This document shows, piece after piece, positions 18,999 through 64,000 of a stretch of 64,000 nt of DNA. Position 1 is the stretch's first letter; every line of letters begins with the position of its first letter. The position numbers and the translations under genes were made by a program. Origin of the DNA: Ulva prolifera (Eukaryota > Chlorophyta > Ulvophyceae > Ulvales > Ulvaceae); contig CM041197.1 in NCBI GenBank assembly GCA_023078555.1, positions 10,564,160 to 10,628,159 of the forward strand, given 5' to 3'. The notes under the pieces are model-generated. The model did no database searches and was not told the origin of the DNA. It saw nothing but the letters and a program-made list of their open reading frames with translations.

Positions 18999-19045
<47 letters not shown>
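18999..19045. repeat. 47-base C homopolymer (G on the minus strand)
   Basis: An uninterrupted run of 47 C residues. Its true length may be uncertain because sequencing of such runs is error-prone. It lies just upstream, in the sense of the minus strand, of the reverse-transcriptase pseudogene. Confidence 0.9.
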
Positions 19046-31199: not shown

Positions 31200-34100
31200 G
31201 TGGTGTGAGGCTGCAGCCTGCCCGCTCCAGATGCAGCACATGCATGGTGAGCCATGTAGCCTGACTTGGCTTAGTACATTTCGTGATTAAGCACGTAATG
31301 CAAAAGTACACGTATGGTATGTTTGCTCCAGCTAGGGGGGGTTGACCAGTACGCTGCATAGGCTACATCACTGGCTTGGCGCCGGAGGCAAGATAAGGTA
31401 ATGCAACTCGTATTAATGCAACTCTGCATGTAGCCACGTGCCTGCTACAGCCAACTGCTACTCAGCTCACCGTCGAACAAGAATGTGTGGCTGATATGCT
31501 GGGACTCGGGTCACCTCAAGTACTGCCTTAATCACCACCCAATGCGTAGCTTGGAGATAGTGTCAAATCAAGTGTAGGTCAAGTTGGTGCCGAGCCGTTT
31601 GTGTGTTCCTAGGTGCACGGCGGAACGGGATAGGGTGGAGATATGGTGAAGTAACAGGCCCCCAGACTCCTGAGGCATGCCACAAAGTGCTTATGCATGC
31701 ATCACTGTGTAGTTTAGTCGCGCATATCTGCCATTGCAGGCTGCTCTGCCATCAATACATGTGCATCGAGGCGCCTGAACCTGTTTCAGGCTGTATTGCC
31801 AGAGCTTACCGCCGGCATGCATGTGCAGAGGAGGGGGGCTTGAGGCTGGTGGGGAGGGTCGATATCAACGGCTTTGCCACGGGAGCGCTCCAACTCTTCC
31901 ACGACGGCGCCTACGGCGCAGTTTGCATTGAAGGCTTTGACGCAGCGGCCGCAGATGTCGCGTGCCGGCAGCTGGGCTTCATCGGCGGCACCAACATCCC
32001 GCTGGCCATCAGGGGTAACTTGGACAGTAGGCAGATACGCTCTGTCATCGAGGTCCGTGCCTTCTCCATGTAAGACGTAGGTACTGCTTTCAGATCACAG
32101 GATGCTCTACCCCGCAGGCTGCTGAGCAGTGTCGGAGTTGGGGCTGGTGAAAGGTGTGTACTCGAATGCCTTGACAGCGCCATTGGTCCGCCTGTGTTTC
32201 ATTTCATGACAGCGGGAGCTCAGTGAACACAGTTACAGTGTGGGGAGTGACCAGTCAGGGCATACCACACCTGTCATGTCAGCGGGAGCTGAGTGAACAC
32301 GGAAGTGTTCACCTGCTACAGTCTACCTGTATGCAATCAATATACCCAACTGCCATGACTCTCTACACAGAGCTGATCAGACCTATGCATGCACATGCAT
32401 ATGCACACAGTGCACTAGACTACACAGCAACTTCTCAAGACAATTCATGCAAGTGTGGGAGTCATGGATGTGTGCTTGTGGAAGTGTCCAGCCTAAGAAT
32501 GGCTGGGTTCAGATGGAGCTGCTTTCCTGCCTCTGTGCATGCTAGCCAGAGCATTTTGACCTCCTGTATGTTGGGTTTGATATCTTGGAACCGTTGATCC
32601 GACGATTTCTTGGAACTGTTGATCCGAGTCTGGAAATTTTGTGACGTGATGCTTTACTTGATGACACAGCTGTAGGCTACACAGCTGTAGGTGTTACTGC
32701 TGTCATTGCTATGTGAATTTTCGCAGTGACACAGCTTTGGCAGTTTTGCAGCCCTGACGAGCATTCCAGGCTCGGATATGTGCTCAGTGTATCGTTTGAG
32801 GTGGTGCTGTGTTACAAGGACAACGGCAGCAAGGCGGGCAGCACCGCGAAAGAAGCAAACAGACGAAGCAAACACACAGGAGACAGTCGCAAAATTTGAG
32901 ACAGCCCTGCAAGCGCCCCTTGCGCAGTTGCTGCACGACATGGACTCATGTAGCATGCCGCATGCTGAAGCTGCCAACACTTTCACATCTGCCCTGGCAA
33001 ACATCCTACGTACCGCAGGAGAGCAATGCTTTGGGAAACACCAGGTACGGACCCATCGCGTGCAATGGTGGAACAAAGAATATGCAGACCTCAGACGCGA
33101 ATGCTGGACCCTTCATGAGACACATTGCCGGACCGGCAGCGACACTGACAAGCTAGCATTCCAGCAACGCCGAGGTGCAAAGAACCAGCTGAAACGCGAT
33201 CTTAAACGTGCATACACCAAACAGCAAGCCAACCATGTCTCTAAAACGTGCACGCCAGGACTTGAGTCTAAAGTTTCATGGGTGTCTGCGAAACGTTTGT
33301 TGAAACTGCTAACCAGGGGTGGCTCGACGGCCGAGCACCCCGTGCCTTCTGTTATGTCTGGGGGAGTCCCCACTGATAATATAGACACAGTGATGCAGGT
33401 TTTCTCGAATCACTACCAATCTGAAATGAACCCGGTCCCACATGCCACATTCTGCGAGCAAACTGATGCACATGTCAGAGACACATTGCACGCATGGCGC
33501 CAAAATGAGCCTCCACACAACCAAGAGATGGATGATGCCTTCACACTTCACGAACTTCAACAAGCACTTGCTACAATGCACAACTGGAAAGCCGCAGACC
33601 ACGATGATATCATCTGCGAACTACTGAAGGCCGGGGGGCCGCAATTGCAAACCGTCGTCCTGCAGCTCCTCAATTTCTGCTGGACGCACGAAACCATTCC
33701 CAATGCGTGGTCACTCGGAACAATTGTAAGCCTCCACAAAGCCGGGGATGCAACAGACCCCTCCAACTACCGGGGTATCACACTGCTTTCAATATTCCGG
33801 AAGCTTTTCAGCACACTACTCAGGTCCCGCCTCCAAAACAATATAACCCTCCATGAGTCCCAAGCCGCATTCCGCGAGGATCGCGGCTGTGTAGACCATG
33901 TCCACACCTTTGCACGCATTGTCCGGGCGGCCGCCGCGGCGGACACTCCACTTTATGCTTTCTTCCTGGACATCCGGAAAGCATATGATACTGTGTGGCG
34001 CGACGGTCTGTTGTACAAACTACTCCAGAAAGGAGTGACAGGCCGCCTCGGTCGGGTCATCGCACACATGCTCTCAAACACGAAATCGAGGGTGCGCTTC

Positions 34101-37100
34101 CAAGACCAGGAATCACCATACTTCCCCATCACCCTCGGGGTCGGCCAAGGCGACCCCCTGTCAACCATTCTCTTTGATGTGTTCATTGATGATCTGCTCG
34201 CAACACTGCACACCCGTCCAAAAGAACTCTGCATTCCCCTTGACTCACCAGACACCGATAAAATTTCCGGACTCACTTATGCAGATGATGTCAATGCAAT
34301 GTCCTTGACACCGGCAGGGCTTCAGGGACATATTGATACAATCGATAAATGGTTGTTTCAATGGCGCTCCTTACCAAATGTGTTGAAGTCTAAAACTATG
34401 GTGTTCAATCAGCCGCAGGGCGGCGCACCAGTTGTCTTCCAGCTGCGGGGGTCGCAGTTGGAGACTGTTCACACCTACAAATACTTGGGTGTTTTCTTCC
34501 AGTCAAATGGCTCTTGGTCTGAACATATGCATCATGTACGCGCAAAGATGAACAAGGCACTTGGCGCGTGGCGGCCAGTGCTGCGTTGCCACTACCTCCC
34601 GGTGACCGCCCGGCTCCGCCTTGTTTATGCGTTCATATATACTCCTGCTTTGTATGGGGCTGAGGTATGGATTGGCCCAAAAACTGAACTCGACAAACTT
34701 GATACCATCTGTAAAAAGGCAATCCGCATGGTGTTTGGTCTGCACCAGTTCGATTGCAGGGAGGAGATTCTTTTTTCCGACACGGGCCTCCTGCCTGTGA
34801 GCTCAATGATCAAGGCAGCTAAACTTTGCTGGTACGCAAAGCTGACACACATGGGGGCGGAGCGATTCCCGGTTGCGGTGGAATCCACCGCGATTCGGGG
34901 TCACTCTCAACGGGGGCCGGGGGTGGGCGGGGACTTTCACTCCCGCATCACGGCCATTGCGGCAGAACTGAAACGATATGCACACATCAGACTTGCCTTA
35001 CAGGCTCCACCCGAGCCTGAGCATCGCCGCCGACGTGGGCCACCCAGGGTGTCCAAACGTCTCGGCATGCATGATCAGCCGTCCAAACAAAGCCCTCTCA
35101 CAATCACGTACTCAAATCTTACCCGTGAGAAGGTCGTGGCTGTCATGTGGTTGGCATACCTTGAACAACGATTTGAGAAGCGTGGTCGCGACAATAAGGT
35201 CACTGGAGAGTGGTTGCGTGGTGTGATAACACACGAACTAGGGTCACTAGCCCCGTTTATGGACTCCGTTGAGCCCGGTCTTGTGCGTGTGCTAATGTCT
35301 GCTCGTTCGGGTCTGTCTCCTTTCTTGTGTAGGCACCGTAGTGAAAAGCATTTGGAATATTCACGTGCTGCTGATGTCTTCACATCCTACATCGCACGTG
35401 CACCCATCGGGGCAGTTCTGCCACCTGTCCCAGTGGCACATCGTGATCGGCATGTCTCCGCCGTTGCGGTTTTGGTGCGGTAGTTGCTCGCACGGCCAGG
35501 TCCTTATGACAGTGCCTCTGGTGTTTCGTGGTCTGATGTAGCGGTTGTGCTTATTGTCGGTGTTGATGGTGTTGGTGGTGATGCTGGGGTGTCGGGTGTT
35601 GCAAATCGCCCGTCCCCTCTCGGTGAATTGGCTCGTGTTGTTGCATTCTGTGGCGCAAGTCAGAGTTTGCGGCAGCATGTTGCTTGGATGCCTCTTTCGG
35701 TCCCGGATTTCGGAGTTGTCAATGTCCAAATGGATACGGCTATGTAATCATGCATACATACATACATACGACTGCGTGAGTGGATTTGCGTGTGTATTCC
35801 TGGCAACGGCTCGCTGCCCGGCCTCTGTCCTTTGTAACTACATACATACATACATACATGCCATCTGCCGTATCTTTATCGTACGTCTGTCGTCTGTGCT
35901 GTGTCGTGGTCCCGATGTAGACGCATGCCAAAAGAACCCGGCTGCGGGAGGCAGCAAAAAGAAAACGAATAGGCCCTTAGTTGTGTTCTGTCGTCCGCTG
36001 TCGTGCAGCTGCAACGAATACGCGCGCCAGCTGCCAGTGTTCCGTCGTTCTGCAGCCCCACTAGAATGCCAGCGGACTGACCGCCAGTGGCCTGCAGCCT
36101 TGCCCATTTGGAACACCTAGATGTCTGTTCTATGTTTCGCCTGGCCTTCCTGGTGACCCGCTTGGCTGTGCAGCCGTCATGTCGGCGCGGGCCGCTGGCT
36201 GCCCGCGTGCCGTTGTCCGGCAGTCCCACTGGCAATCCTGCGGACTAGCCGCAGGTGATCTGCAGATTTGATTCGTTAAAAGTGTTGTGTGTTTGTTGTT
36301 TTAGTTTTGTGCCGTCTGGCCGGTTCAATGGCCCGTTAGACTGCACCGTTAGTGTGTCCGCTTTCAGCGGAACGAGTCCCTGCGTATGAGCTTTCAGTGT
36401 CCATATGACGGATGCAGCGCTAGTCTCTCCTCCCATTCAAGTCTGTTCACCCACATCCGAGGAATCCATCGCGACGGGCCGAGGCTGCCCACTGCGAAGC
36501 TGCACGAACTCAATGCCGCGTACTGCTCTCACTGTGGCATATTCGGCTCCACCAAGACCCCTAAGGCGCATAAATGTGTGGGAGGTCAGAACAGGAGCTT
36601 GAGGTCAGGTCACTGCGTGCTGCCCGCCACACATCCGGCCCGACAGCCCGCCCCAGCCCAACCCGCCCCAGCCCAGCCCGCCCAGCCGCAGCCCGCCCAG
36701 CCGCAGCCTGCCCAGCCTGCCCAGCCGCACCCCCATCAGCCACCCCGTCACTTCACCGAAGCCCCCGCCGCCGCCCACAACACCGCCCAGCCCAGGCCCT
36801 CCCCGAAGGTCCCGGACACCGTCCATCCGGAGTTCGGCGACGCAACGGCCGAGCTCCTCAGAGATTTCAACGATGCCAGCGACGCGTCAAACATCGACGG
36901 AGCACGACTGGCCCTGGGCCGCGTCCTCGACTTCCCTGGTAAGGTTCTGTCGCTGAAGGGAGGGGACGGCACGGCGCGCCGCGCTCGTACATGCATCACG
37001 CTGTTCATGGACGGCGAGGAGCCCAGGCTGGCGGAGCCCACTCCGAGCCAGAAGCGCAGAATGAATCAGAACCAGGATCGCCGCCTGGCGGGCTCCGTCC

Positions 37101-40100
37101 ACAGGTCACTGAGCGACGGTAATGTCCGCAAAGGCGCGGAGAAAGTGGAGGCGCCGCCCAACGCCAGGTACACCCCGGAAGTGCATGAGACGCTGCGGCA
37201 CCTGCATCCCGCAGAAGCGCTCCCCCCCGACACCCAGCCCGCCGAGCCCGCGCCCCCGCTGCAAATCGACGAGGCGACGCTCCGCGCACTGCTCGACAAG
37301 CTGCCGAAGGGCAGCGGCCCAGGCCTGTCGGGGTGGACGTATGAGCACATCCGGGCTGCTGGCACGGCCTCCACGGCCGCATTCACGGAGATTCACCGCT
37401 TCGTGAACGCGGCCCTCGCCGGCCGGCTGCCACACCTCCCGCGCTTGCTGGACTGCCGCCTCCTCCCGCAGGAGAAGCCACAGGGAGGCGTCCGCCCTAT
37501 CGCCATTGCAGAGACGTGGCAGCGCCTGGTAAGCCTGTGCGCCATGACCATGTGCAGTGGCCTGGGTGCCTCCCTCGCGCCGCTGCAGGTGGGGGTCGGG
37601 GTGCCAGGGGGCGCGCAGAACCTGGGCCATGCTGCGCGCGCCGTGCTGCAAGCGTGGGACGATGTCGTGCTTGTGCAGCTGGACTGGAAGAATGCATTCA
37701 ACATCATGTCCCGTGCAGCCATCTTGGAGGCCGTTGCGTCTCACAAGCCTGCGCTGCTGCCCTTCGCCACCATGCTTTACAGGTTCCCCGCAAATCTCTA
37801 CATCGAAGGCGCACCGCCCGGCACCGCTGCAATCACGTCGCAGCGCGGCGTGCGTCAAGGCGACCCCATCAGCCCGCTGCTCTTCGCCCTGGCCCTCCAG
37901 GGCCCCCTCCAAGCAGTGCAGGCCCAGCACCAGCCGCCCGGGAGGGAGGTCACGGCCGCCCTCATGGCGTATCATGACGACTGCACCATCGCCGGGCAGC
38001 GCGTGGACGCCGCCGCCGCATTCCGTGCGCTGGTCTCGGCAGCAGAGCCCCTCGGGCTGGAGCCCCAGCTGCACAAGTGCACGGCCTACTCGCGCGACCC
38101 CCAGCATGCGGGATCCGTCGCGGCCGCGCTCGGCATAACGCATGCCACGGAGGGCACCGTCATCACCGGCACGCCCATCGGCACCCCGGCGTTCGAGTCG
38201 GCGCACGCGGAAGCGACGGCCGACAAGGTGTGCGCCACCATCGAAAAGATGATGCGCTTGCCCCTGAAAGCGCAAGACCAGTTCTTGCTGCTCACGATGT
38301 CCTGCCAACGCCGTATGCTGCACTACGCCAGGGCGGTGCCGTGGGCGCACATTTCCGATCACATGCGCCGGACGGAGGCGTCCGTCCTGGCTGCGGTGAA
38401 TGAAATCATGCGCGTCCCGCGGGACGACACTCGTGCGGCCGCACAAGCCGTCCTTCCAGCGCGCCTCGGAGGCCTGGGCGTCACGTCCACGCCGCAGGAG
38501 GTCGCGGACGGAGCGTACCTCGCTGCAGCGGCGGTGAGCCAAAAGGCGTTCGCAGGAGGCCCCGAGTGCATGCAGCCGTACCGGGGGCCGCACGGGCAAC
38601 AATTGCAGGAAACCTGGCAGGCCCTCAACGTCGCTCAGCAGCTCCATCCGGAGCTGCCCGGGCCAGCGAGCGGCGACACCATCGCCAAGGTGTTACCTGG
38701 TATGCAGCAGCGTATCACAAAGTTGGTTGCCCTGCGCCGCCGGGCAGCTCTGCTTGCCAGCCATGACGTCGCCACGCTCGAGGGTGCATGCAACTTGGCA
38801 CGGCTTCGCAGCTGTGCTTGCCGTGCAGCCACCCTTTGGTTGAGCACCCTGCCGCTCTCCCAGGCGCTGCGCATGACTGACATTGAGTTCATGCTGTGCA
38901 TCAGGTATCTCCTGGGCATGTCCCCAGCCCCTCCCAATGCGGTCGGCTCGCGCTGCGAATGTGGCACTCTCATACAGCCGCATGATCTCGATCACGCGAT
39001 GAATTGCACACACAATGCGGGGACCTGGACTTCGCGCCACAATATCGTTGAAAAACAATGGCGCGAGATCGGGTCCCACGCGTGTGTGGCATCCACGCGC
39101 ATCCCGCGCACAGCGCCGTTCGTCCGCGCGCAGCTCGCGGCCGCATCGAGGCAGATCCATGCTGGCCCGTTGGGCCCGCCCCCCCCTGCTCCGCCCCAGC
39201 CCGCCTCCCAGGTCGCGGGCCCTTCGCGTGGGGCAGCCTTGCCCGCGGCGCCGATGCCTGCAGCCCCGCCGCCGCCGCCGACCGCGCGTGCGGATGAGGC
39301 GCCGGCACCTACGCCTGCTCCGGCCGCCGACGCCGATGCTGGACACAGCGCCCACATGGGGCGCCACGCGCCAGACGCAGCGCAGGCTGCGGCCCTGGCG
39401 GCGGCGGCGGCGCCGGGTGGTCAGGGTCCAGCGGGGCCTGGGGAGCAGGCCGCTGCCGCGCAGGCAACGGCGCTGGATGAGGTGTTCAGGGCAGTGGCCC
39501 AGGAGAAACTGGGGGACATCATGTTTATGCCGCCGGGCGACCCTTTGTGCATAGGAGATGTGTCGGTTGTGAACCCCTGTGCTGGTTCCTATTGCGGCCG
39601 TGCGGCCCGCGAGGACGGGGGTGCTGCGGAGACGCGGGACGTGCAGAAACGCACTGCTTATCGTTTGTACGACCCTGATGCGTATAGTTTCGTGCCGTTG
39701 TCGCATGAGACGCATGGTCGCTTGGGGCGGCCTGCCATGAATCACTTGAATCGGCTGGCGGAGGTTGCGTCTCGGTGTGGTAAGGTGAACCGTGCTTTGT
39801 TTGTGACGAATGCTCTGCGCCGGTTGAGTGTGGCGTTGTGCAAGGGGAATGCTCTTGTGCTCCGTGCGGGGCTTCAATCTTTGGCTGGCATCACCGGCCG
39901 AGCTGTGGTACGTGCTCGTGCCCGGCCTAGTGCCATGACTGCGTGAGTGGATTTGCGTGTGTATTCCTGGCAACGGCTCGCTGCCCGGCCTCTGTCCTTT
40001 GTAACTACATACATACACAGGCCCCACTATATGTCTGCAGCCCCAACGACATACGGCCGTCGTTCTTTGTCGTACGTCTGTCGTCTGTGCTGTGTCGTGG

Positions 40101-43100
40101 TCCCGATGTAGACGCATGCCAAAAGAACCCGGCTGCGGGAGGCAGCAAAAAGAAAACGAATAGGCCCTTAGTTGTGTTTTGTCGTCCGCTGTCGTGCAGC
40201 TGCAACGAATACGCGCGCCAGCTGCCAGTGTTCCGTCGTTCTGCAGCCCCACTAGAATGCCAGCGGACTGACCGCCAGTGGCCTGCAGCCTTGCCCATTT
40301 GGAACACCTAGATGTCTGTTCTATGTTTCGCCTGGCCTTCCTGGTGACCCGCTTGGCTTTGCAACCGTCATGTCGGCGCGGGCCGCTGGCTGCCCGCGTG
40401 CCGTTGTCCGGCAGTCCCGCTGGCAATCCTGCGGACTAGCCGCAGGTGATCTGCAGATTTGATTCGTTAAAAGTGTTGTGTGTTTGTTGTTTTAGTTTTG
40501 TGCCGTCTGGCCGGTTCAATGGCCCGTTAGACTGCACCGTTAGTGTGTCCGCTTTCAGCGGAACGAGTCCCTGCGTATGAGCTTTCAGTGTCCATATGAC
40601 GGATGCAGCGCTAGTCTCTCCTCCCATTCAAGTCTGTTCACCCACATCCGAGGAATCCATCGCGACGGGCCGAGGCTGCCTACTGCGAAGCTGCACGAAC
40701 TCAATGCCGCGTACTGCTCTCACTGTGGCATATTCGGCTCCACCAAGACCCCTAAGGCGCATAAATGTGTGGGAGGTCAGAACAGGAGCTTGAGGTCAGG
40801 TCACTGCGTGCTGCCCGCCACACATCCGGCCCGACAGCCCGCCCCAGCCCAACCCGCCCCAGCCCAGCCCGCCCTGCCGCAGCCCGCCCAGCCGCAGCCT
40901 GCCCAGCCTGCCCAGCCGCACCCCCATCAGCCACCCCGTCACTTCACCGAAGCCCCCGCCGCCGCCCACAACACCGCCCAGCCCAGGCCCTCCCCGAAGG
41001 TCCCGGACACCGTCCATCCGGAGTTCGGCGACGCAACGGCCGAGCTCCTCAGAGATTTCAACGATGCCAGCGGCGCGTCAAACATCGACGGAGCACGACT
41101 GGCCCTGGGCCGCGTCCTCGACTTCCCTGGTAAGGTTCTGTCGCTGAAGGGAGGGGACGGCACGGCGCGCCGCGCTCGTACATGCATCACGCTGTTCATG
41201 GACGGCGAGGAGCCCAGGCTGGCGGAGCCCACTCCGAGCCAGAAGCGCAGAATGAATCAGAACCAGGATCGCCGCCTGGCGGGCTCCGTCCACAGGTCAC
41301 TGAGCGACGGTAAAGTCCGCAAAGGCGCAGAGAAAGTGGAGGCGCCGCCCATCGCCAGGTACACCCCGGAAGTGCATGAGGCGCTGCGGCACTTGCATCC
41401 CGCAGAAGCGCTCCCCCCCGACACCCAGCCCGCCGAGCCCGCGCCCCCGCTGCAAATCGACGAGGCGACGCTCCGCGCACTGCTCGACAAGCTGCCTAAG
41501 GGCAGCGGCCCAGGCCTGTCGGGGTGGACGTATGAGCACATCCGGGCTGCTGGCACGGCCTCCACGGCCGCATTCACGGAGATTCACCGCTTCGTGAACG
41601 CGGCCCTCGCCGGCCGGCTGCCACACCTCCCGCGCTTGCTGGACTGCCGCCTCCTCCCGCAGGAGAAGCCACAGGGAGGCGTCCGCCCTATCGCCATTGC
41701 AGAGACGTGGCAGCGCCTGGTAAGCCTGTGCGCCATGACCCTGTGCAGTGGCCTGGGTGCCTCCCTCGCGCCGCTGCAGGTGGGGGTCGGGGTGCCAGGG
41801 GGCGCGCAGAACCTGGGCCATGCTGCGCGCGCCGTGCTGCAAGCGTGGGACGATGTCGTGCTTGTGCAGCTGGACTGGAAGAATGCATTCAACATGATGT
41901 CCCGTGCAGCCATCTTGGAGGCCGTTGCGTCTCACAAGCCTGCGCTGCTGCCCTTTGCCACCATGCTTTACAGGTTCCCCGCAAATCTCTACATCGAAGG
42001 CGCACCGCCCGGCACCGCTGCAATCACGTCGCAGCGCGGCGTGCGTCAAGGCGACCCCATCAGCCCGCTGCTCTTCGCCCTGGCCCTCCAGGGCCCCCTC
42101 CAGGCAGTGCAGGCCCAGCACCAGCCACCCGGGAGGGAGGTCACGGCCGCCCTCATGGCGTATCATGACGACTGCACCATCGCCGGGCAGCGCGTGGACG
42201 CCGCCGCCGCATTCCGTGCGCTGGTCTCGGCAGCAGAGCCCCTCGGGCTGGAGCCCCAGCTGCACAAGTGCACGGCCTACTCGCGCGACCCCCAGCATGC
42301 GGGATCCGTCGCGGCCGCGCTCGGCATAACGCATGCCACGGAGGGCACCGTCATCACCGGCACGCCCATCGGCACCCCGGCGTTCGAGTCGGCGCACGCG
42401 GAAGCGACGGCCGACAAGGTGTGCGCCACCATCGAAAAGATGATGCGCTTGCCCCTGAAAGCGCAAGACCAGTTCTTGCTGCTCACGATGTCCTGCCAAC
42501 GCCGTATGCTGCACTACGCCAGGGCGGTGCCGTGGGCGCACATTTCCGATCACATGCGCCGGACGGAGGCGTCCGTCCTGGCTGCGGTGAATGAAATCAT
42601 GCGCGTCCCGCGGGACGACACTCGTGCGGCCGCACAAGCCGTCCTTCCAGCGCGCCTCGGAGGCCTGGGCGTCACGTCCACGCCGCAGGAGGTCGCGGAC
42701 GGAGCGTACCTCGCTGCAGCGGCGGTGAGCCAAAAGGCGTTCGCAGGAGGCCCCGAGTGCATGCAGCCGTACCGGGGGCCGCACGGGCAACAATTGCAGG
42801 AAACCTGGCAGGCCCTCAACGTCGCTCAGCAGCTCCATCCGGAGCTGCCCGGGCCGGCGAGCGGCGACACCATCGCCAAGGTGTTACCTGGTATGCAGCA
42901 GCGTATCACAAAGTTGGTTGCCCTGCGCCGCCGGGCAGCTCTGCTTGCCAGCCATGACGTCGCCACGCTCGAGGGTGCATGCAACTTGGCACGGCTTCGC
43001 AGCTGTGCTTGCCGTGCAGCCACCCTTTGGTTGAGCACCCTGCCGCTCTCCCAGGCGCTGCGCATGACTGACATTGAGTTCATGCTGTGCATCAGGTATC

Positions 43101-46100
43101 TCCTGGGCATGTCCCCAGCCCCTCCCAATGCGGTCGGCTCGCGCTGCGAATGTGGCACTCTCATACAGCCGCATGATCTCGATCACGCGATGAATTGCAC
43201 ACACAATGCGGGGACCTGGACTTCGCGCCACAATATCGTTGAAAAACAATGGCGCGAGATCGGGTCCCACGCGTGTGTGGCATCCACGCGCATCCCGCGC
43301 ACAGCGCCGTTCGTCCGCGCGCGGCTCGCGGCCGCATCGAGGCAGATCCATGCTGGCCCGTTGGGCCCGCCCCCCCCTGCTCCGCCCCAGCCCGCCTCCC
43401 AGGTCGCGGGCCCTTCGCGTGGGGCAGCCTTGCCCGCGGCGCCGATGCCTGCAGCCCCGCCGCCGCCGCCGACCGCGCGCGCGGACGAGGCGCCGGCACC
43501 TACGCCTGCTCCGGCCGCCGACGCCGATGCTGGACACAGCGCCCAGATGGGGCGCCACGCGCCAGACGCAGCGCAGGCTGCGGCCCTGGCGGCGGCGGCG
43601 GCGCCGGGTGGTCAGGATCCAGCGGGGCCTGGGGAGCAGGCCGCTGCCGCGCAGGCAACGGCGCTGGATGAGGTGTTCAGGGCAGTGGCCCAGGAGAAAC
43701 TGGGGGAAATCATGTTTATGCCGCCGGGCGACCCTTTGTGCATAGGAGATGTGTCGGTTGTGAACCCCTGTGCTGGTTCCTATTGCGGCCGTGCGGCCCG
43801 CGAGGACGGGGGTGCTGCGGAGACGCGGGACGTGCAGAAACGCACTGCTTATCGTTTGTGCGACCCTGATGCGTATAGTTTCGTGCCGTTGTCGCATGAG
43901 ACGCATGGTCGCTTGGGGCGGCCTGCCATGAATCACTTGAATCGGCTGGCGGAGGTTGCGTCTCGGTGTGGTAAGGTGAACCGTGCTTTGTTTGTGACGA
44001 ATGCTCTGCGCCGGTTGAGTGTGGCATTGTGCAAGGGGAATGCTCTTGTGCTCCGTGCGGGGCTTCAATCTTTGGCTGGCATCACCGGCCGAGCTGTGGT
44101 ACGTGCTCGTGCCCGGCCTAGTGCCATGATTGCGTGAGTGGATTTGCGTGTGTATTCCTAGCAACGGCTCGCTGCCCGGCCTCTGTCCTTTGTAACTACA
44201 TACATACACAGACACCCACGCACGCGAAACCCACCACGCCCAAAAAAAACAACCCCGCAGCACCGGCGCAGAAGACACAGATCCGTAGACCGCCAAGCAC
44301 ACACCCACACACCCACAAACCCAAACCCACACACGCACGCACAAACCCCACGGCCGACACACAACACCACAACCACCAGCACGACAACGCCCGCCGCCGT
44401 ACGACAAGGCCAAACCCAACACACTGCCGCTTGAGGCCGCCCATCATGGCCACCCGATTGCCGGGGGCCGCCCTGGCCCCAAGACCCACCCTCACACCAC
44501 CGAGCCACAGCACACCACGCCAGCCCGGCACACCGCCGCGCAGCCTCGCCGGCCCACGCCGAACCGCACCCAGGACAATGCATCGCCCAAGCCGTCTCCG
44601 CAGGCCCTGCACATCCAACGAAGTTTGAGGTGGTGCTGTGAGAATCTGTGTATCTGTGTCAATTTGAAGTCAGGATCCATTGGTCCAAGCCGTTGCAGCT
44701 GGCGTGAAGGTTTCGCGTGGGTCGAGCCACTTGATACTGACTCGTTCGCAAGAACCCGCACGGAATTCACAAATTTCCAGCATATTTGGTTGCTTCGCCT
44801 TTCATCATCAAGTCTGCGTTGTACTCCAGAAATGAATGGTGCCAGCTTTGAGCCAGTTCAGCTGCATGCAGTCCATCCTGGCCCCCATGGTGCTGGAGAA
44901 CCTGGCGTGCACGGGCACCGAGGAACGCCTCGTGGACTGCCCCGGCTCCCGAGACCCTCCAGACTACGCCTTCATGACCCCTAACTTTGACCCCGATTAT
45001 GTCTACACATACTACGGCGCCAGGACCGAAGGCTGCGACCCCCTCGGGGCAACGTACGCCTTTGTGGCCTGTGGCACTGAGACTGGTCCAAGTGCGGTGC
45101 CCTGCTGCTCGACGTGACGTTCATGCATTGGCACATGCATTGCAGCGTCGGCTCCATGCAGGCGGCAACGTCGCACTGGGTGGTCGCGCATAAGTATGGG
45201 ACCGGCCTTATGCGCGGAATTATGAGCGTGCGACACACCATGTATTTCTCGAAAAGGCTGGCAAGCACCGTCGCCATATGACTGCACAGCGCCGTAAACC
45301 AATCGTGCGCATCCTGGGCCGAGGTAAATACTGTATTTCGGCACAGTTTTGACTTCCGCGACGCTTGGTCGTTGACTCCGGGAGCGATCGGGCAAGCGCA
45401 GCTACGTTAGTGCCTACGCGAACGAATGTACAGCTCCTACATCAGGCTTCCTTGAATCAACGATAACGAGTACTTACAAAGGCACAGATCTGTAATTGCA
45501 GTTATGGCTGCGACGAGAGGCTGTTCACATGGGCCTTCTGCGGGAGCTGTTCAGTGCTCAGGCCTTACATGTTCTCCAGAGGGCTGAAACTGCTCCAAAG
45601 AACGACAAAAAGGGCTTCAAGTTGATCAGTTCGTGTTTTCCAAACAATCTGGACTTCGTCGATCTTGTTCCCGCTCGTTGACGGCAGGTCAAGTGTCCGG
45701 AAGGGCACCCGTCAGACCCGCGGCGCAATCATGATTTGACTTCAATGATTCGCCTCGACTACAACTTGATACGGTATCAGTTTACGACATCAGCTTCTAC
45801 AGGCGGCATGCATCGACCTGTCCTGACCTTTTCGCGTCTTTCGATGTGCAGTGTCGCCTGTGATCCGTGCTTGACAACAAGTGGCGCAGTCCCGATGGTC
45901 AGCTGGTTTCAATGTCCTGGCGTCCGGCCTTGGCGTGCCCGTCATGCCAAGATGTCACAAAGTGTTTCAGACTGATGCAAATCGAGATGGTCATAACGTT
46001 CAAGCGTATCATCGTCAGATCGTGTGCTGCATTTACCGGACACATGCAAATCGTATCCGCCTTCTCGCCAACAACTTCTGCCGATCCGCCTCAGAATGAA

Positions 46101-49100
46101 CATCTCCTGCATTTCTGATACCGCAGTTTGGAGAGATGGTTCCGTAGGAATGCCTTGATGCATTGATTGTATGCTTTTGTGTCAACCCATCGTCACCACG
46201 AACGCACCCGATACAGGTACGCCTCGGATGAACCCATCAAAGGTCTGTTTCCGGTTAATATATTTGTTGAGGAGAAGTAAGTGCCCATGCGGTGAAATTC
46301 TGTATGTCATCCATGCGTTGTTGTTTCAGTTCCATATGCCAAAGCTACCTCGAATCGCACTTGCAATCAATACATGTATGAACTGCGACTGACATGACGC
46401 ACAGTTAAGTGTCAATCATATCACATGACTGTCACATCCCAGCCATGTTTGATTCATGGCAATTTCTTAACCGTTTGGATTGGTACTGATCCGTGATCAC
46501 CATACATCGGGTTATCAGGTCAGAACCTGCATCCATCACAATTGGTGAGAGACACGCGCGAACACATGGGAAGTTTTCTTGTGCAGGTGGACTGAGACTG
46601 AGGAAAGCTAACACAAGAGTAAATCTACATTGTGCCTCAAGTTCCAGTTACACCTGAGTCGTATGCAAAACCATCCGAACTGGTGGGACGAATGATAAAT
46701 ACTTGTAGGCGTGTAAGGTTGCTTTACATGGTGGAGAGATGCAATATTGGGATTGTTCATCCTCAAAACATGCCATCGAGCTTCGCAACCAACATTGACA
46801 TGCCTACCCGATGATACAATCCACATCCTGCGGCAAATGAATTGGCATTAAGTGACTGGCATCAAGCAGTAGTATCTCGAGGCAGTCGCGCGTATCGTGT
46901 CGAGCCTGTTGCTCCAATCTGGGGCGTGCCAAGGTATGGACATGCTCGGCGCCATCACACCGTGACGCCATCTGCCATGAAGTGCTGCTGTGCATTCACA
47001 TTTGCACACTGCGGATCAATAATGTGCAGAACTTTAGCTTGAATGGAGTAGCACTGCACCAATTCTCAGCTTGATGAGAGCAGGCTGGGTATGGATGTCT
47101 AGGCAATGTGCCCACAATGTATATTGCTGCGTGCCAGCACGGATACCAGCATCTGCCATGAAGTGATTATATCAATTCAGATGCAAACCAGGATACAATC
47201 AGCGAGTGCATATACTGAAGTTGCACTGCACCAATTCTCAGCTTGATCAGAGCAGGCTGGGAGTGGATGTTTAGGCAATGTGCCCACAATGAGTATTGCT
47301 GCGTGCCAGCACGGATACCAGCATCTGCCATGAAGTGATTATATAAATTCAGATGCAAACCAGGATGCAATCTGTGAGTTCATATACTGGAGCAGCACTG
47401 CACCAATTCTCAGCTTGATCAGAGCAGGCTGGGAGTGGATGTTTAGGCAATGTGCCCACAATGTGTATTGTTGCGTGCCAGCACGGATACCAGCATCTGC
47501 AATGAAGTGATTATATAAATTCAGATGCAGACCAGGATACAATCTGTGAGTTCATATACTGGAGCAGCACTGCACCAATTCTCAGCTTGATCAGAGCAGG
47601 CTGGGAGTGGATGTTTAGGCAATGTGCCCACAATGTGTATTGCTGCGTGCCATCACGGATACCAGCATCTGCAATGACGTGATTCTATGAACTCAGATGC
47701 AAACCAGGATACAATCTGCGAGTGCATATACTGAAGTTGCACTGCACCAATTCTCAGCTTGATCAGAGCAGCCTGGGAGTGGATGTTTAGGCAATGTGCC
47801 CACAATGAGTATTGCTGCGTGCCAGCACGGATACCAGCATCTGCCATGAAGTGATTATATAAATTCAGATGCAAACCAGGATGCAATCTGTGAGTTCATA
47901 TACTGGAGCAGCACTGCACCAATTCTCAGCTTGATCAGAGCAGGCTGGGAGTGGATGTCTAGGCAATGTGCCCACAATGTGTATGGTTGCGTGCCAGCAC
48001 GGATACCAGCATCTGCAATGACGTGATTCTATGAACTCAGATGCAAACCAGGACACAATCAGCGAGTGCATATACTGAAGTTGCACTGCACCAATTCTCA
48101 GCTTGATCAGAGCAGGCTGGGAGTGGATGTTTAGGCAATGTGCCCACAATGAGTATTGCTGCGTGCCAGCACGGATACCAGCATCTGCCATGAAGTGATT
48201 ATATAAATTCAGATGCAAACCAGGATCCAATCTGTGAGTTCATATACTGGAGCAGCACTGCACCAATTCTCAGCTTGATTAGAGCAGGCTGGGAGTGGAT
48301 GTTTAGGCAATGTGCCCACAATGTGTATTGTTGCGTGCCAGCACGGATACCAGCATCTGCAATGAAGTGATTATATAAATTCAGATGCAAACCAGGATAC
48401 AATCTGTGAGTTCATATACTGGAGCAGCACTGCACCAATTCTCAGCTTGATCAGAGCAGGCTGGGAGTGGATGTTTAGGCAATGTGCCCACAATGTGTAT
48501 TGCTGCGTGCCATCACGGATACCAGCATCTGCAATGACGTGATTCTATGAACTCAGATGCAAACCAGGATACAATCTGCGAGTGCATATACTGAAGTTGC
48601 ACTGCACCAATTCTCAGCTTGATCAGAGCAGCCTGGGAGTGGATGTTTAGGCAATGTGCCCACAATGAGTATTGCTGCGTGCCAGCACGGATACCAGCAT
48701 CTGCCATGAAGTGATTATATAAATTCAGATGCAAACCAGGATGCAATCTGTGAGTTCATATACTGGAGCAGCACTGCACCAATTCTCAGCTTGATCAGAG
48801 CAGGCTGGGAGTGGATGTTTAGGCAATGTGCCCACAATGTGTATTGCTGCGTGCCAGCACGGATACCAGCATCTGCAATGAAGTGATTATATAAATTCAG
48901 ATGCAAACCAGGATACAATCTGCGAGTGCATATACTGAAGTTGCACTGCACCAATTCTCAGCTTGATCAGAGCAGGCTGGGAGTGGATGTTTAGGCAATG
49001 TTCCCACAATGTGTATTGTTGCGTGCCAGCACGGATACCAGCATCTGCCATGAAGTGATTATATAAATTCAGATGCAAACCAGGATACAATCTGTGACTA

Positions 49101-52100
49101 CATACAATGGAGCAATGCTGCACCCAATGGCAGCTTAATCGAAGTATGACTTGGCATGGTATTCCTTTGTACTGTTTGTTTCACGTCTGATCATGCATCC
49201 AATAAATGCCCTGCTTCACAGGCAATCAAGGCTCCTGTGACTCCTGCATCCTGCGAGAGCCTAGATCCTCCGTGCATGTATAAGTTAAGGTGGCAGCTCG
49301 CCCTGTACATGTATTATGTCTATCGTGCTTGGTTGCTCGTTGTACGGAGCTGTGTGTTGGCCGAGGTGTAAAGTAAGTAAATCTAAATTTACTGAGCCGA
49401 ATCCTATTGGACTTTGAGGTGTGTTATCGTGCGTTTCCACGGCCAACGCAGTAATCCTTACACAAAGATGGCGACGCCGTGCACTGTGAATGAAAGTGCA
49501 AGCATCCACGAGAAATTATGCCACTGCAATGAGCTGCACACACCGCTTGGGCAGGTACAGTAGGAGGTCATCTAGCACCGCTGCAACATATCATCACGAT
49601 CCCATTTTCATGCTGTAGGAGGCATATTGTAAATTTGGCATCGAGACAGTGAGGCTATAGCTCATGTGGAATGACATTCACTGCGATCACGCCACGCACA
49701 CCAAACCGTTTGTGCCTTTCCCCGAGCAAAGCGGTTTTGACATAACCTTACATAGGAGCTACTGTAAAGTACCTGTAGAAAGCTTGGATGCAGCCAGCGA
49801 CGTGCAGTCACCGTAATTATGCGTAAGATGCACGGACGGGAGGCCCGTCTTCAAACAATAGAAATTCATACTGTACGCCACACAGACACCGTACGCGAGC
49901 GCATAGAACATACGATACAGTTGACACGATCACATCACGCATGCACTTAGCAATGTCTGAAAGCGGCGCATAGTCCAATGCTTCGAACTCGTGCACTGTT
50001 GCCTGCAACGCTGCATGATTGCCTGTTCCAACCTTGCGCAAATATCAGAAGATATTTCCACTGAACTCTTGAAGTATCTACGATGGTCTGGAGGCAGCAC
50101 CGGTTCTGCGTTCTGTCGGTTGTCCAAACCACCAGCTCGGGCGGGCCTCATGCATGTTGCCGTGGCGTCGAATGTCCCCATGCAACAGTAGCCTGGGCGA
50201 GGCGCGATCACCGCCCGCTAGCTTTGTTGCCAGTAAAGGTTGTGAAACACGCGTTGATACTTCATTGCTTGAACCACCATCTTGAGCGATGAGGTGCTGG
50301 CGAATGCGGTAGGCACCACATGTTCCCGCGGCGTACTGAAACGTTCGCTGCAACTGTTCGACAGAAGTGGGCGCTTCGCAGACACGAATACTTGTCTTGA
50401 TGGCATTGATTGTAATGGTTACCGCTTACGGCATTTAGTCTGTGATTCCATCCCGTTTAGGCCGACGTGCTTTTGTTAGCTTCTCACAATCACAAGAAAG
50501 TCCGACCGCTGCCCAGCCAGCGGGCAGTCTAAGATCTCCAAATTATGTTCATAGTATGGTTTCTTCTAGCTGAAGTGCAGTGTGGTGGGCCTTTTGGCCG
50601 TTTACAGGTGTCTGATACAGGGGCTGTCGTTTTGACGACGCTCAACACTGGTCCGTGTGACATGACGCCTCTGCGGCATTGCACGTTAAATGCTGAATTT
50701 TGTTATCCTTACATCAGCTGCTGATTGCTCCGTCGCAGCAGTGGCGCTTGGTCGCCAGAAGCACGTTGCCGTACGACATAGTTGCCATTCAGTGCAATTT
50801 CCCAAGCCTCTCTCCTTCCAACGCAACCACTTAGACAAGCATGCAGTGTAGCAGATCAAATGATATGGTGCTTGTCTGGAACAGCTCCATGGCCACACAG
50901 GTGTACGGAGTAGCAAGGTCGATGCACTGTTGTTGGCATGTCATCGTTGTTGACGCTCGTGAAAAACCCACGTCCGCATATGAAGGACATGTGGTAGGTA
51001 TCCGCTGTACAGTGTATCGAGTGAAAGCAGTTGCGGTGCACTGGCGCCGCGATTTGCGTTGTTGACAACGCGATGGTTCGCAGGTCGACGACATGATCAA
51101 CGGTAAACTACGTTGGCAAAGCGCACACACCACAGTAATTGTGTTTCAAGTCTCTGATGGATCGGGATGGTGCGATACTCAGCCATGTCCATGTCGTCGC
51201 CGTGTGCGTGTGTTGAATGGTCTTTGCCGCTTGCCATACATTAGATGATTGATGTTCGATTTCTTTTTCGCAGCTCCAGAATTGCGTCACCGTGGATGCA
51301 GCTGCGATTTCCAACACTGTGTTGGGGCCTCGTGGCGAAAGGCACGCGCTGCCTTCGATGTTGCGACAGGGCTGTTACGAGTTCCGCGGGCGCCGCGGCA
51401 CTAGTGGCACCTTGCAGCGGCGGTGCCCTGTTGCCACAAGAGTGCCACGAGTTCCGCGGGCCCCGCGGTACTAGCGGCACCTTGCAGCGGCGGTGCCCTG
51501 TCGCCACAGGTGCGCCACGGGTTTCGCGGGCCCCGCGGTACTGTCGTCACATGGCTACAGGGATCCCCGAACGATTGGACGTGCAGACCAACGTACGCCG
51601 TGATCACGCCATGCCTCCTAACAAGACACATCATGTTGCAGGATCAACAGGCACGCTGTATGTTTCTGCGAGACAATATGATGGATGTCCATCGGTTGAA
51701 CAAGGTCACGCAAGCAGACCCGCCTAGCTACGCTGTACCTATCCTTGGCCCCTACTGTGTCATGGCGTGCCTTCTATTGATTTGTAGTGCAGTACGTAGT
51801 CTTGGAATATTGCAGATCGGGTGCTCTTCTCATGAAGCAAGGTAAGAGACACACAACTGCACGAGCTGCATTTATCTCTAAGATATCCCACGTTGTACTG
51901 AACAAGAGCCACAGTCGCTTTATACATAGCTCACTGATAACTGCACAGACGCCACTCACTTGAAGTTGACTTTGTGAAGTTGCATGCCGACATAGCTTGT
52001 GTCTGGGTCGTACCAGCCGCTTGCATGGCCGGCGACTGCAGGCAGCCCAGTCAATGTTCTGCGATTAACATCATTTGAATAAGAAACTGCTGTCACTGTG

Positions 52101-55100
52101 CGGAGGCGTACTCACGTGCCGTGAGCAGCGCTACGCAGAGGTCGTTCGTTTGCCATGCGCCTTCAGATTCGCCACGAGTGGCCATTCTGGTGGGCATGGC
52201 AAACGCACGACTTCTGTGTAGCTCTGCTGGCCACGAGATTGCGTCACGGCGGCGGCGCAGATCAAACTCTTCTGTCTCGTTGACACAATGAAACAGCGTG
52301 CGAGATGCACTGCGGGGAATAGCGTCTTTGACGGTACACACAGCCCACCTACCAAAGCAGAGTATCGCCGATCCCCCGACCCGGGATCATAAACACGCGG
52401 TGCCCGCGCATAAAGATGCCTCGAATGGGTAAGGGGATAAGTGCGGATTTATGCGCGGGCTTATGTGGCGGTCATGTCATAATTATGGCTCCAATATGCG
52501 CGAACACCCACTTAGACGAACCCCACCGCAGTTGCTCTCTGTTCTAGCGGCCGCGTGCATGGACTATCCACCAAGGCTTGAACTCGCAATGATATCATAT
52601 TGCAGAGCTTCGGCTCTGTTATAGGTGGCTTCATGAGACCTGAAGCTGCGCAGCGCAGGCTTTCGAGCTGCGACTGTGTCGCCACTGTGTATGTATGCAT
52701 GCTGTATATGTACCGGGCGGCCGTACACAAGCACATGTTCTGCCGAGTCGTGTCTGAATGTGAAGGGGAACCACTCCTGCAGCCACCGTCATGCATGCGA
52801 ACGGGGCCATGCCTGGCGCGATGTCATATCGCACCTTGAGAGCTACTTCAGTACATGCCATTTCAGTTATCTCAGGCTGCAATCTGGTGTGCACACAAAC
52901 AAAGTGCAACACCATGTGCGCCCAGACGGCCGTAGCTAGACAGACAGTGTGCGCAGCGACCTACAGTCACCTGTAGCAATCCATCTGCTGCATCTCATAT
53001 CCCATCCAATCTGGTAATGCTTCTTGACCGCATTGCAAGTTCAGTGAAAGATAATGAAGGGGGGAGCCATCTGTCATGCTTGCGATTCATCTCGTCGCAC
53101 GCGTGGAGCCTGCCTGCTTGCATGGTTCCAGACGAAACGTGCAGGGATCGCCGTTGCGGTATCGTCCAGGTTCATTATAGCATGCTGTCAACATTGTGCA
53201 GATGCGGGCGACCTGAGGCTGACCGGAGGCTTGAACTCCGAGGACGGCAACTCGCAGTTCGGGCGGCTCGAGGTCTTCAACAACGGCGGCTGGGGCACCG
53301 TCTGCGACCGCACCGGCCGAGAGTTTCGCCGAAACATTGGTCTCACAGCGTTTTCTGACGAGTCGGTGGATGTCGCCTGCCGGCAGCTCGGGTTCGCTCA
53401 GGGCTCCAAGACCAAGCTATCTGTGCGCCCCTTAGCCACTTTCCGGCTGACCATTCTTGATTGAAAACCAGCCTCTCCAGTGGCTGCTAGCTCAGCCGCG
53501 GTGCATGCTCGGGCGCCCTGTCTGCGTACTCATGGTACCCGGCAGCGTGCTGCTTGCGGTTGGCCGTCTGTGTTGATGGCGGTGGCGTGCATGGCATGCA
53601 CACACACATTCATATACTGGGGGCCCGGCCACTGTTCTTTGTAATTATATATAACGGCAGTGCTGTGGTACGCGTTCGTGCCCGGCCTAGTGCCATGAAT
53701 GAGCAAGTGGGTATGCAAGGGGATCCGAGAACCAGCTTCATGCCCGGCTCTATCCTTCGTAGCTACATATTCACAACATTCAGTTACACGTGATTCTTTA
53801 AAGTAGACACTCTGCTGGCGCCGGCCGGCTAAATCAGATAGTGCACCATGTATTGTGAGCTCTAGTAAAAGCACAAAATATGCGCATGACTGAGTTCGTA
53901 GTCTCAAGAGAAGTGCATATGCGGTGGTCGGAATCCTGTCGCTTGCCACATCTTACACCTTTGCTGTATCGTGAAGCACACTGTTGTTGCCTCTTGCTAT
54001 ATCTTGCACTAGCCGGCCTAAGAAGAGGCTGTAGCGTTTCACCAAACATCTGTTGTTATTAACATGCGAAGCTCACTGACTTCACCACAGCATCAAGCCA
54101 CTATTACAACTTCTTGATGCTACGATACACAGTTCCTGGCTGAACGTGCTAGCTCTACACCTGCCAGGAAATGGTTGTGTCAAAGCTCTTCAACGGTGCA
54201 ATTGTTGCAAGAGCGTGCCTGGGTGAGGTTCTTGGTGGGAGGCCTTGTCTCATGGCCTTTTTGTCTCATGCTTTGGGTGTGCATGCAGCAGCCGACCATA
54301 TCGCTGGACGACAGACGCGTGCCGACGTGGCTTGCCGGCGCGGCCTGTGACGGCACCGAGGCGGCCCTCACCGACTGCCCAGGCGTGGCCTTCGGTAACA
54401 ACACCCAGGCCTGTGGATTGGGTGATGTGCTGGTGATTTTGTGCTTCAACAGCGCTCAATCTAGTGGTATGTCTCTTCCACTGCGTCACAATGGTCTTGG
54501 CTGTTTCTTGTTGTCTCGAACAAGTGCCGCATGACGGTGTGGCCCGCCCAGATGGTGGCGAAGTAAGCCTAGGGCTACTTAAGGCGGACGTCGTCTGGTC
54601 CACAGCCTAGTGCGCTGCGATTCCTGCTCACGTGTTTGCCATGCTGCGATAATTAACCCTGGCGATGATGACTCTTTTCCACAGGGGCATGTACTAAGCA
54701 TCTTGGCCGGTATTCAACACAGACGCTCCTGTGGCTGTACAGGCAGAGATGGCGAGCTGCGCCTCGTGCAAGGTGGCGCGGGCCCAGGCTACGAGTACGG
54801 CCGCCTGGAGATCTTCCTGCGGGGCTTCTGGAGCACCATGTGCGACACGGACGGCTTCACCCCCGACTCGGCACAAGTGGCCTGCAGCATCCTCGGCTTT
54901 GATGGCGGCTCCTCCATCCAGTTCAGGCAGCCATACTCCGGCTTCGAGAACCAGGTAGGTAGTTCAGTATCAATGTTTTGCTGATTGCATTTGCATTGTA
55001 CCTGTCTAGACAAGGGCAGTTCTGAAGGCGTGGCCTTGCCGTGGAGTCCAAGCTTTCTGCAGTGCAATGCACTGGACGGCTAACATGTTCATATGTTGCT

Positions 55101-63022: not shown

Positions 63023-64000
63023 GTGTGTGTTACTTCTCTTCTCTGGTCCTTGCTGTTGCAGGGCAAAACAGGTTCCTCAAGGTTGAGGCGCACTTGTGAG
63101 TGCTTGTGAGTGGAGTCGAGCATGCATCTTCCCTTGTACGGCGATGTTGTGTGCTGCTCCAGCCGTGGCCTGTGAATTGGTGAGATACTTGGAACATACA
63201 TCCCTCGTCTGCATCATGTTCCGTACATGGGATTACAGCGTCAATCATTGCTCCTGTGTTCGCGTCAAGTGGGCTGCTGCTGTGCAGAGTCTAATGTCAT
63301 CCGGCGTCTCTAGTGCCGTCACATACAGTAGGCAGTCATCTGGAGGGCGATTTATGACCTGGGACGGGACTACGCTCCACCCCAAGGATAGCACAAGACA
63401 TTCTTGACTGAAACATGGAGCTCAGTGTGGAACTTCAGATGCCTTGATGCAGCACAGGCGCTGCATGCTCCATGCGTTGTACTCCTGGATGCCATCTGAA
63501 GTTGAAGCGTTAACCTGCGAGGAGCCACCATTGCCAGTGGCACTGCCATAGTTTGTGCAACAGACACTGGCTGTGCGCTGTAGTGACTGTTGCACGGGAA
63601 TTGATTTTGAATAAAACAGCCTATCGCATGTGACACGTGCGGCACGGCTGCTGACAGATAGGTCGTTGCGGCTTCTCGGTTGCGAATGCATAGCCGCAGT
63701 ATGGACTGCGGTCTCCAGTGCACCTAGGCAGGCACAACTCCCTGATAGGTCTCACTAGTATCCTGGAAATTTGGAATGAACATGGTCGCCGGACAGCCAT
63801 TCATTTAGGCTTGCATAGGGAGGCACGTGAAATGGTATCATTATCGTGTTACGGGCCTTCAGTACCTCGGAAAAACAACTCTCATCTACAACACTTGCCG
63901 GGACAGAAGTGTGTCATGTATATAGAGGGCCGGCATGGGGATTGTAGATCATGCAGGCATGCGGAGCTTGCTACCACTACAGCAAGCCTACTTGTTATGG
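63023..64000. other. Intron or 3' region; nothing recognised
   Basis: No further SRCR exon or stop-bearing terminal exon in the right phase was recognised. Because exon 13 ends in a phase-1 donor, the gene likely continues beyond 64000. Confidence 0.4.

Follow-up and report, generated by a model that had tools for sequence, protein, structure and literature searches.

A target-specific LINE of Ulva prolifera probably builds head-to-tail chains by re-entering its regenerated target site

How several long interspersed nuclear elements (LINEs) come to stand head to tail at one place, all in the same orientation, is the question raised by a stretch of 64,000 nucleotides of the green alga Ulva prolifera (assembly GCA_023078555.1, CM041197.1, positions 10,564,160 to 10,628,159 of the forward strand), here called the window, which is part of contig C2 in an 88.9-Mb genome. 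Direct reading together with BLAST confirmed the chain that a preliminary description had noticed there: an element LINE-A, ending in GTAATCATG(CATA)n, is followed by a 69-bp stub of a second element, LINE-B, and then by two LINE-B copies, B1 and B2, all on the plus strand (window positions 35751 to 44211; Table 1). The best explanation of the whole, to which we assign a probability of roughly 0.8, is that LINE-B, a target-specific element with a single open reading frame (ORF), repeatedly hits an R|CAT site that each insertion regenerates, with LINE-A tails as the main landing pad and the chains growing upstream.

The LINE-A ORF matches the RVT_1 family of Pfam (E 1.5e-24). The LINE-B core measures 4,125 bp, B1 and B2 are 99.3% identical, TACATACA(TACA)n stands directly behind each LINE-B core in the window, and the junction at LINE-B's own tail reads GTAACTACATACAT. 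The units had been described as starting flush at the repeats, which holds for the stub behind the (CATA)n of LINE-A but not for B1 and B2, since 42 bp lie between the stub and B1 and 66 bp between B1 and B2, in both cases a target copy plus a 5' leader of variable length (26 bp in B1 and 51 bp in B2). The flank of the stub matches the stub-B1 spacer over 15 bp and the B1-B2 spacer over 12 bp, within repeats only. Leaders of 20 to 50 bp before full-length cores are common to distant copies (window B1 and L016, L030 and L031, L023 and L024, where L numbers denote individual loci), as though transcription began upstream and took some of the flank with it.

LINE-B ends in ...TTTGTAACTA, followed by a target-site duplication of about 10 to 25 bp, and this is also the case at plain, non-repeat sites. 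Duplications with unique letters were found at L018 (12 bp, TACATCCGCGCA), L051/L105 (18 bp, TACATACATACATACACG), L107 (18 bp, TACATGCATGCAAGCCCG), L049 (19 bp, TACATACATTATACATTAT), L095 (20 bp, two mismatches), L104 (22 bp, TACATACCAACACCCGCCCGGC), and L097 (23 bp, one mismatch, TACATGTGGCTGCCGGCA.GTCC), while at several copies, e.g., L096, L098, and L021, the duplication is short or has no match. The tally of duplications excludes the overlapping first batch (L001 to L008) and the duplicate stretches L035, L038, L075, L079, and L082; two spurious "+" matches (L012 and L016) were dropped from later tallies. Since copies outside repeats carry their own non-repeat target, the ACAT repeat behind LINE-B is a target-site duplication, and an encoded ACAT tail, which had been taken for the element's own end, is ruled out by these lone sites.

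The 3' flank starts with TACAT in 111 of 120 LINE-B ends, a set in which a few stubs are very short and one end (TTTGT) falls within a leader at L012, and in 85 of the 93 among them that were chosen without the 21-nucleotide 3' end of LINE-B. At three targets without TA, namely, CATG|CATACAGTGCC (L088), CATG|CATGCAGAC (L103), and CATG|CATACAAG (L106), the copy still has GTAACTA before CAT, from which it follows that LINE-B ends in GTAACTA and that the cut is at R|CAT; TGCA/CATG recurs upstream of the cut. Of the first 38 exact ends of LINE-B on contig C1, 10 lacked a following TACATAC when read by eye. Judged from these junctions, what LINE-B targets is a short motif, R|CAT, and not strictly a microsatellite. 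Of the targeting of (ACAT)n proposed at the outset, site specificity is thus retained, but the microsatellite as a strict target is not.

Of 80 LINE-A tails examined, 56 carry an insertion of LINE-B or of a partner element termed NAB, either within the tail or immediately after it, in all cases in LINE-A orientation. The first 40 tails, the best scoring of 297 candidate LINE-A 3' ends (99 to 100% identical), include 24 that carry LINE-B: 15 of 30 recognized by BLAST, one very short stub (L049) recognized by eye, and 8 of 10 in previously examined loci, L021 among them. The second 40, with no overlap with the first, were drawn from 100 tails listed out of 185 (up to three mismatches), with known chain loci excluded, and 32 of them are occupied (30 by LINE-B and 2 by NAB). 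Because a few tails are near-duplicates, independent insertions are somewhat fewer than these counts. When the same 38 C1 ends were classed by eye, 19 fell in chains at LINE-A tails, including older LINE-A-like tails. Long (TACA)n tracts, too, mostly accompany these elements: on C1, 20 of 22 have a listed end of LINE-A or LINE-B no more than 100 bp away. LINE-A tails represent the main renewable landing pad for LINE-B. At L012 (C3:1750200-1760000, minus strand), about 125 bp with a second LINE-A 3' end separate the LINE-B copy from the duplicated target TACATCTGGGGCC upstream of it, perhaps as the result of a template switch onto LINE-A RNA.

Tandem chains, units of one chain sharing their orientation, proved common for LINE-B when looked for genome-wide, as the preliminary description had asked. 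The 21-nucleotide 3' end has 1,296 matches in the genome (638 + 658, up to two mismatches), some of which belong to NAB, compared to none for the reversed control. Neighbor statistics were computed on the first 100 exact 3' ends among these, all on contig C1; since the list demands exact TTTGTAAC, mutated LINE-B ends are missed. Sixty of the 100 sit in same-strand chains, and same-strand neighbors within 5 kb number 41, whereas 2,000 random placements gave 2.2 on average and never more than 8, so that the chains are not due to chance; opposite-strand neighbors at this distance number 3. Together with the occupancy of LINE-A tails, these figures led us to reject random insertion. Chain units are mostly 5'-truncated copies, and 57 units have 50 distinct starts, once the 19 that begin at the 5' end and the 9 that begin at the NAB boundary (4064) are set aside.

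The direction of growth can be read, by eye, where unique letters occur outside pure repeats, because an element inserting upstream of an older unit and beside it should leave a long duplication that reaches into the 5' end of the older unit. The duplication at L013 (TACATACATGCCCGCCCCCCCCT, 23 bp) stands in front of the upstream copy and recurs across the downstream junction, where 14 bp of it belong to the start of the downstream LINE-B. At L104, the duplication takes in 7 bp of the downstream stub, which is 83.7% identical to the reference, compared to 98% for the upstream copy, and at L023, it reaches 11 bp into the 5' leader of the downstream NAB. Two chain interiors, L016 (7 bp) and L026, agree with a younger upstream copy, and no case of the opposite order with unique letters was found among the chains examined. 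The initial proposal, insertion of each unit at the tail of its predecessor, is contradicted at these five loci; rather, chains seem to grow at their upstream side, where the original CATG context is kept.

As regards the enzyme, LINE-B has a single ORF of 1186 amino acids, in which the reverse transcriptase (RVT_1, E 8.2e-11 in Pfam) lies between a weak N-terminal C2H2 finger (zf-C2H2, E 0.042, below the curated Pfam cutoff) and a C-terminal Cys/His and putative nuclease region, where CxC...H...C and D/E-x13-D...K patterns were recognized by eye by comparison with the known motif. Among solved structures, the three matches with E values of 0.1 or below are all R2 proteins and cover the reverse transcriptase stretch only; in particular, the R2Tg structure 9dou_A matches residues 303 to 571 (E 1.2e-5). 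The central LINE reverse transcriptase within one ORF is the arrangement of the non-long terminal repeat (non-LTR) retrotransposons with a restriction-like endonuclease (RLE), i.e., R2, CRE, NeSL, R4, and HERO. LINE-B is probably an RLE-type non-LTR retrotransposon, whose endonuclease type we infer from its sequence. An ORF of 1186 to 1196 amino acids is present in 14 of 17 copies read (L027 is outside the count of 14, and the broken ORFs of L017 and L018, shorter than 1000 amino acids, were left out of the protein alignment). A protein search of the alga's own genome, with the best 39 of 8,552 candidates scored, gave no stop in 38 of 39 matches; all were LINE-B copies at 95 to 100%, so that distant relatives were not reached. 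The family looks young.

It is possible to outline how such chains would arise. The LINE-B protein would nick the strand opposite R|CAT, preferentially within TGCATACAT or (CATA)n, and the nick would prime reverse transcription from RNA ending in ...TTTGTAACTA, after which second-strand cleavage about 10 to 25 bp downstream would duplicate the target. The landing site survives because a target copy stands on both sides; with a fresh copy left by every insertion, the spot can be hit again. The sequence shows that one place has indeed been hit repeatedly, mostly by 5'-truncated copies, which gives chains of one direction, the newer copy lying upstream, next to the original site, wherever the order is readable.

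Several observations weigh against this explanation. Among the 38 C1 ends, 11 lie outside LINE-A tails, and for 8 no class could be assigned, as the stretch fetched did not extend to the chain's 5' end. The tail samples contain likely duplicates (L051/L075, L139/L140, and L142/L143, with L123/L146 alike), L147 of the second sample had been known as occupied, and at L021, LINE-B stands at the LINE-A end without a left copy of the CATA repeat. The order of insertion is readable at five loci only, and it concerns the first unit of the chain in three of them; L009 hints at the reverse order within a pure repeat, and pure TACA repeats can slip, so that their lengths say little. Identical neighboring units at L011 and L045 resemble local duplication. 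Finally, the C-terminal nuclease of LINE-B has no match in Pfam, and the structure predicted for residues 836 to 1186 reaches a predicted local distance difference test (pLDDT) score of only 41.

The alternative that survives best, although we consider it unlikely, is that new LINE-B copies enter the (ACAT)n that follows an earlier one, so that chains grow downstream. It would account for GTAAC|TACAT often standing directly upstream of the target copy of interior units, and it allows for the first spacer of L009 being one TACA longer than the second. Outside pure repeats, however, none of the chains examined requires downstream growth, the upstream unit, first in its chain, is the younger one at L013, L104, and L023, and lone sites show LINE-B without an ACAT tail of its own; insertion into its own tail may still occur in chain interiors. 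Far less probable is that unequal crossing-over or replication slippage multiplied a single insertion into an array, as would be suggested by the neighboring units of L045, which lie 305 bp apart, both start at 3835, and share their spacer, and by the two identical 33-bp stubs of L011. As a general cause of chains, this is refuted by the distinct starts of the truncated units, and the spacers of a single chain differ in size and sequence, with NAB units interleaved; it is likely for L011 and L045 alone. An assembly artifact, to which near-identical repeats are generally prone, is hardly credible given many loci on several contigs, with truncation points and duplications of their own and differing composition. 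L017 and L019 were considered as a single duplicated chain, which was not shown, since they share only LINE-A and LINE-B stretches.

The partner NAB (reference L014:1433-2336, 904 bp) has only the last 62 bp in common with LINE-B (92 to 94%) and presumably uses the LINE-B machinery. Its copies in L014 and L023 are 99.9% identical, it also occurs in L026 and L013, and in addition to being interleaved among LINE-B units, it forms a head-to-tail pair in L023:2940-4795; genome-wide, the best 40 of 103 candidates were scored. Furthermore, four copies (L089, L090, L036/L080, and L037/L081), 95% identical to LINE-B over the first kilobase, make up a subfamily B' at TATATA-type sites, with TAT in the 3' flank of all four and TATATATA in three. 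The ORF is intact in both B' copies read, and these differ from the 14 LINE-B ORFs by 39 fixed differences (42 columns with the broken L027 included), 2 of which fall in the finger (residues 13 and 24) and none after residue 1034. On the basis of this distribution in two B' copies, the finger or linker is a candidate for target choice. A joint reading, which we put forward tentatively and at somewhat less than even odds, would see LINE-B as a hyperparasite on the LINE-A tail, a perpetual pad that the second-strand cut renews on its upstream side and from which chains extend 5'-ward, with a few protein changes outside the nuclease core having switched the young subfamily from CATACAT to TATATA.

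Among known systems, R2 has a single ORF in which a finger precedes the reverse transcriptase and a nuclease region follows it, at the N and C terminus, respectively. R2 proteins are the closest solved structures to LINE-B (9dou and 9nl3), and a single ORF and a strict target are common to both, whereas R2 targets ribosomal DNA and the LINE-B match is limited to the reverse transcriptase stretch. Dong targets (TAA)n, and Waldo targets (ACAY)n. According to the accessible part of one source, some HERO families and Togen, at (TG)n, also use microsatellites, and transposons are among LINE targets (PMC4640811). The simple-repeat target resembles that of LINE-B, but that part of the source describes no chains at regenerated sites, and LINE-B also uses single non-repeat motifs. 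MoTeR of Magnaporthe, as far as the excerpted account goes, is a nuclease-type non-LTR element in telomeric TTAGGG, with tandems that are always head to tail, target repeats of variable length between units, and a defective partner in mixed arrays (PMC7367193). LINE-B chains are likewise head to tail, with variable spacers and the partner NAB; different from MoTeR as portrayed there, LINE-B is scattered over the chromosomes, the 100 3' ends listed on the 12.7-Mb C1 lying between 0.27 and 11.25 Mb, and uses the tail of another LINE as well as lone R|CAT sites. Zepp belongs to the L1 clade, with poly(A) tails as its nested target. The available portion of a study on green algae reports that nested, mostly 5'-truncated insertions of Zepp and ZeppL target existing copies and build tandem clusters, with one cluster per chromosome in Coccomyxa (PMC8226300). 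LINE-B shares the nested, mostly 5'-truncated tandem clusters but, compared to that portrayal, is dispersed and ends without poly(A), no flank starting with an A run in 120 ends. Among the literature matches listed, titles and abstract openings mentioned no LINE chain targeting TACA or CAT.

Table 1. Parts of the LINE chain and their positions in the window
Feature	Position	Strand	Remarks
LINE-A 3' part	32730-35750	+	Reverse transcriptase ORF (stop to stop, up to 35483) and 3' untranslated region ending in ATGTAATCATG
LINE-A (CATA)n tail, landing site	35751-35769	+	Left target copy of the chain
LINE-B stub, 5' truncated, last 69 bp	35770-35838	+	BLAST, 97.1% to LINE-B core 4057-4125
Target copy (TACA)n and B1 5' leader TACATGCCATCTGCCGTATCTTTATC	35839-35880	+	Leader recurs in L016
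LINE-B copy B1, core	35881-40005	+	ORF 36386-39946, 1186 amino acids
15-bp target-site duplication TACATACATACACAG (40006-40020) and 51-bp B2 5' leader	40006-40071	+	Identical 15 bp behind B2
LINE-B copy B2, core	40072-44196	+	ORF 40577-44137, 1186 amino acids
Right target-site duplication of B2, TACATACATACACAG, flank beyond	44197-44211	+	Direct reading

Elsewhere in the window, pieces of an SRCR domain flank the chain at 31561-32073 (positions 8 to 47 of Pfam SRCR) and, by eye, at about 44850-44970, so that an SRCR gene, or an intron of it, seems to harbor the 12-kb composite; a further SRCR ORF occupies 62350-63099. A 77% relative of the LINE-B 3' end at 53655-53761 represents an older family member or a related LINE. 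A 172-bp satellite (12 copies, 92% matches) extends over 47044-49114, and a run of 47 C residues lies at 18999-19045. An Rfam scan of positions 32000 to 46000 gave no match up to E 0.5.

Such chains record successive hits on a single site in nature: the target copies and truncation points are preserved, and at some places so is the order of age. Moreover, the existence of 95%-identical subfamilies with different targets, and with ORFs intact in the copies read, makes the part of a LINE protein that chooses the target amenable to testing. More generally, the tail of one LINE can serve as a renewable refuge for another.

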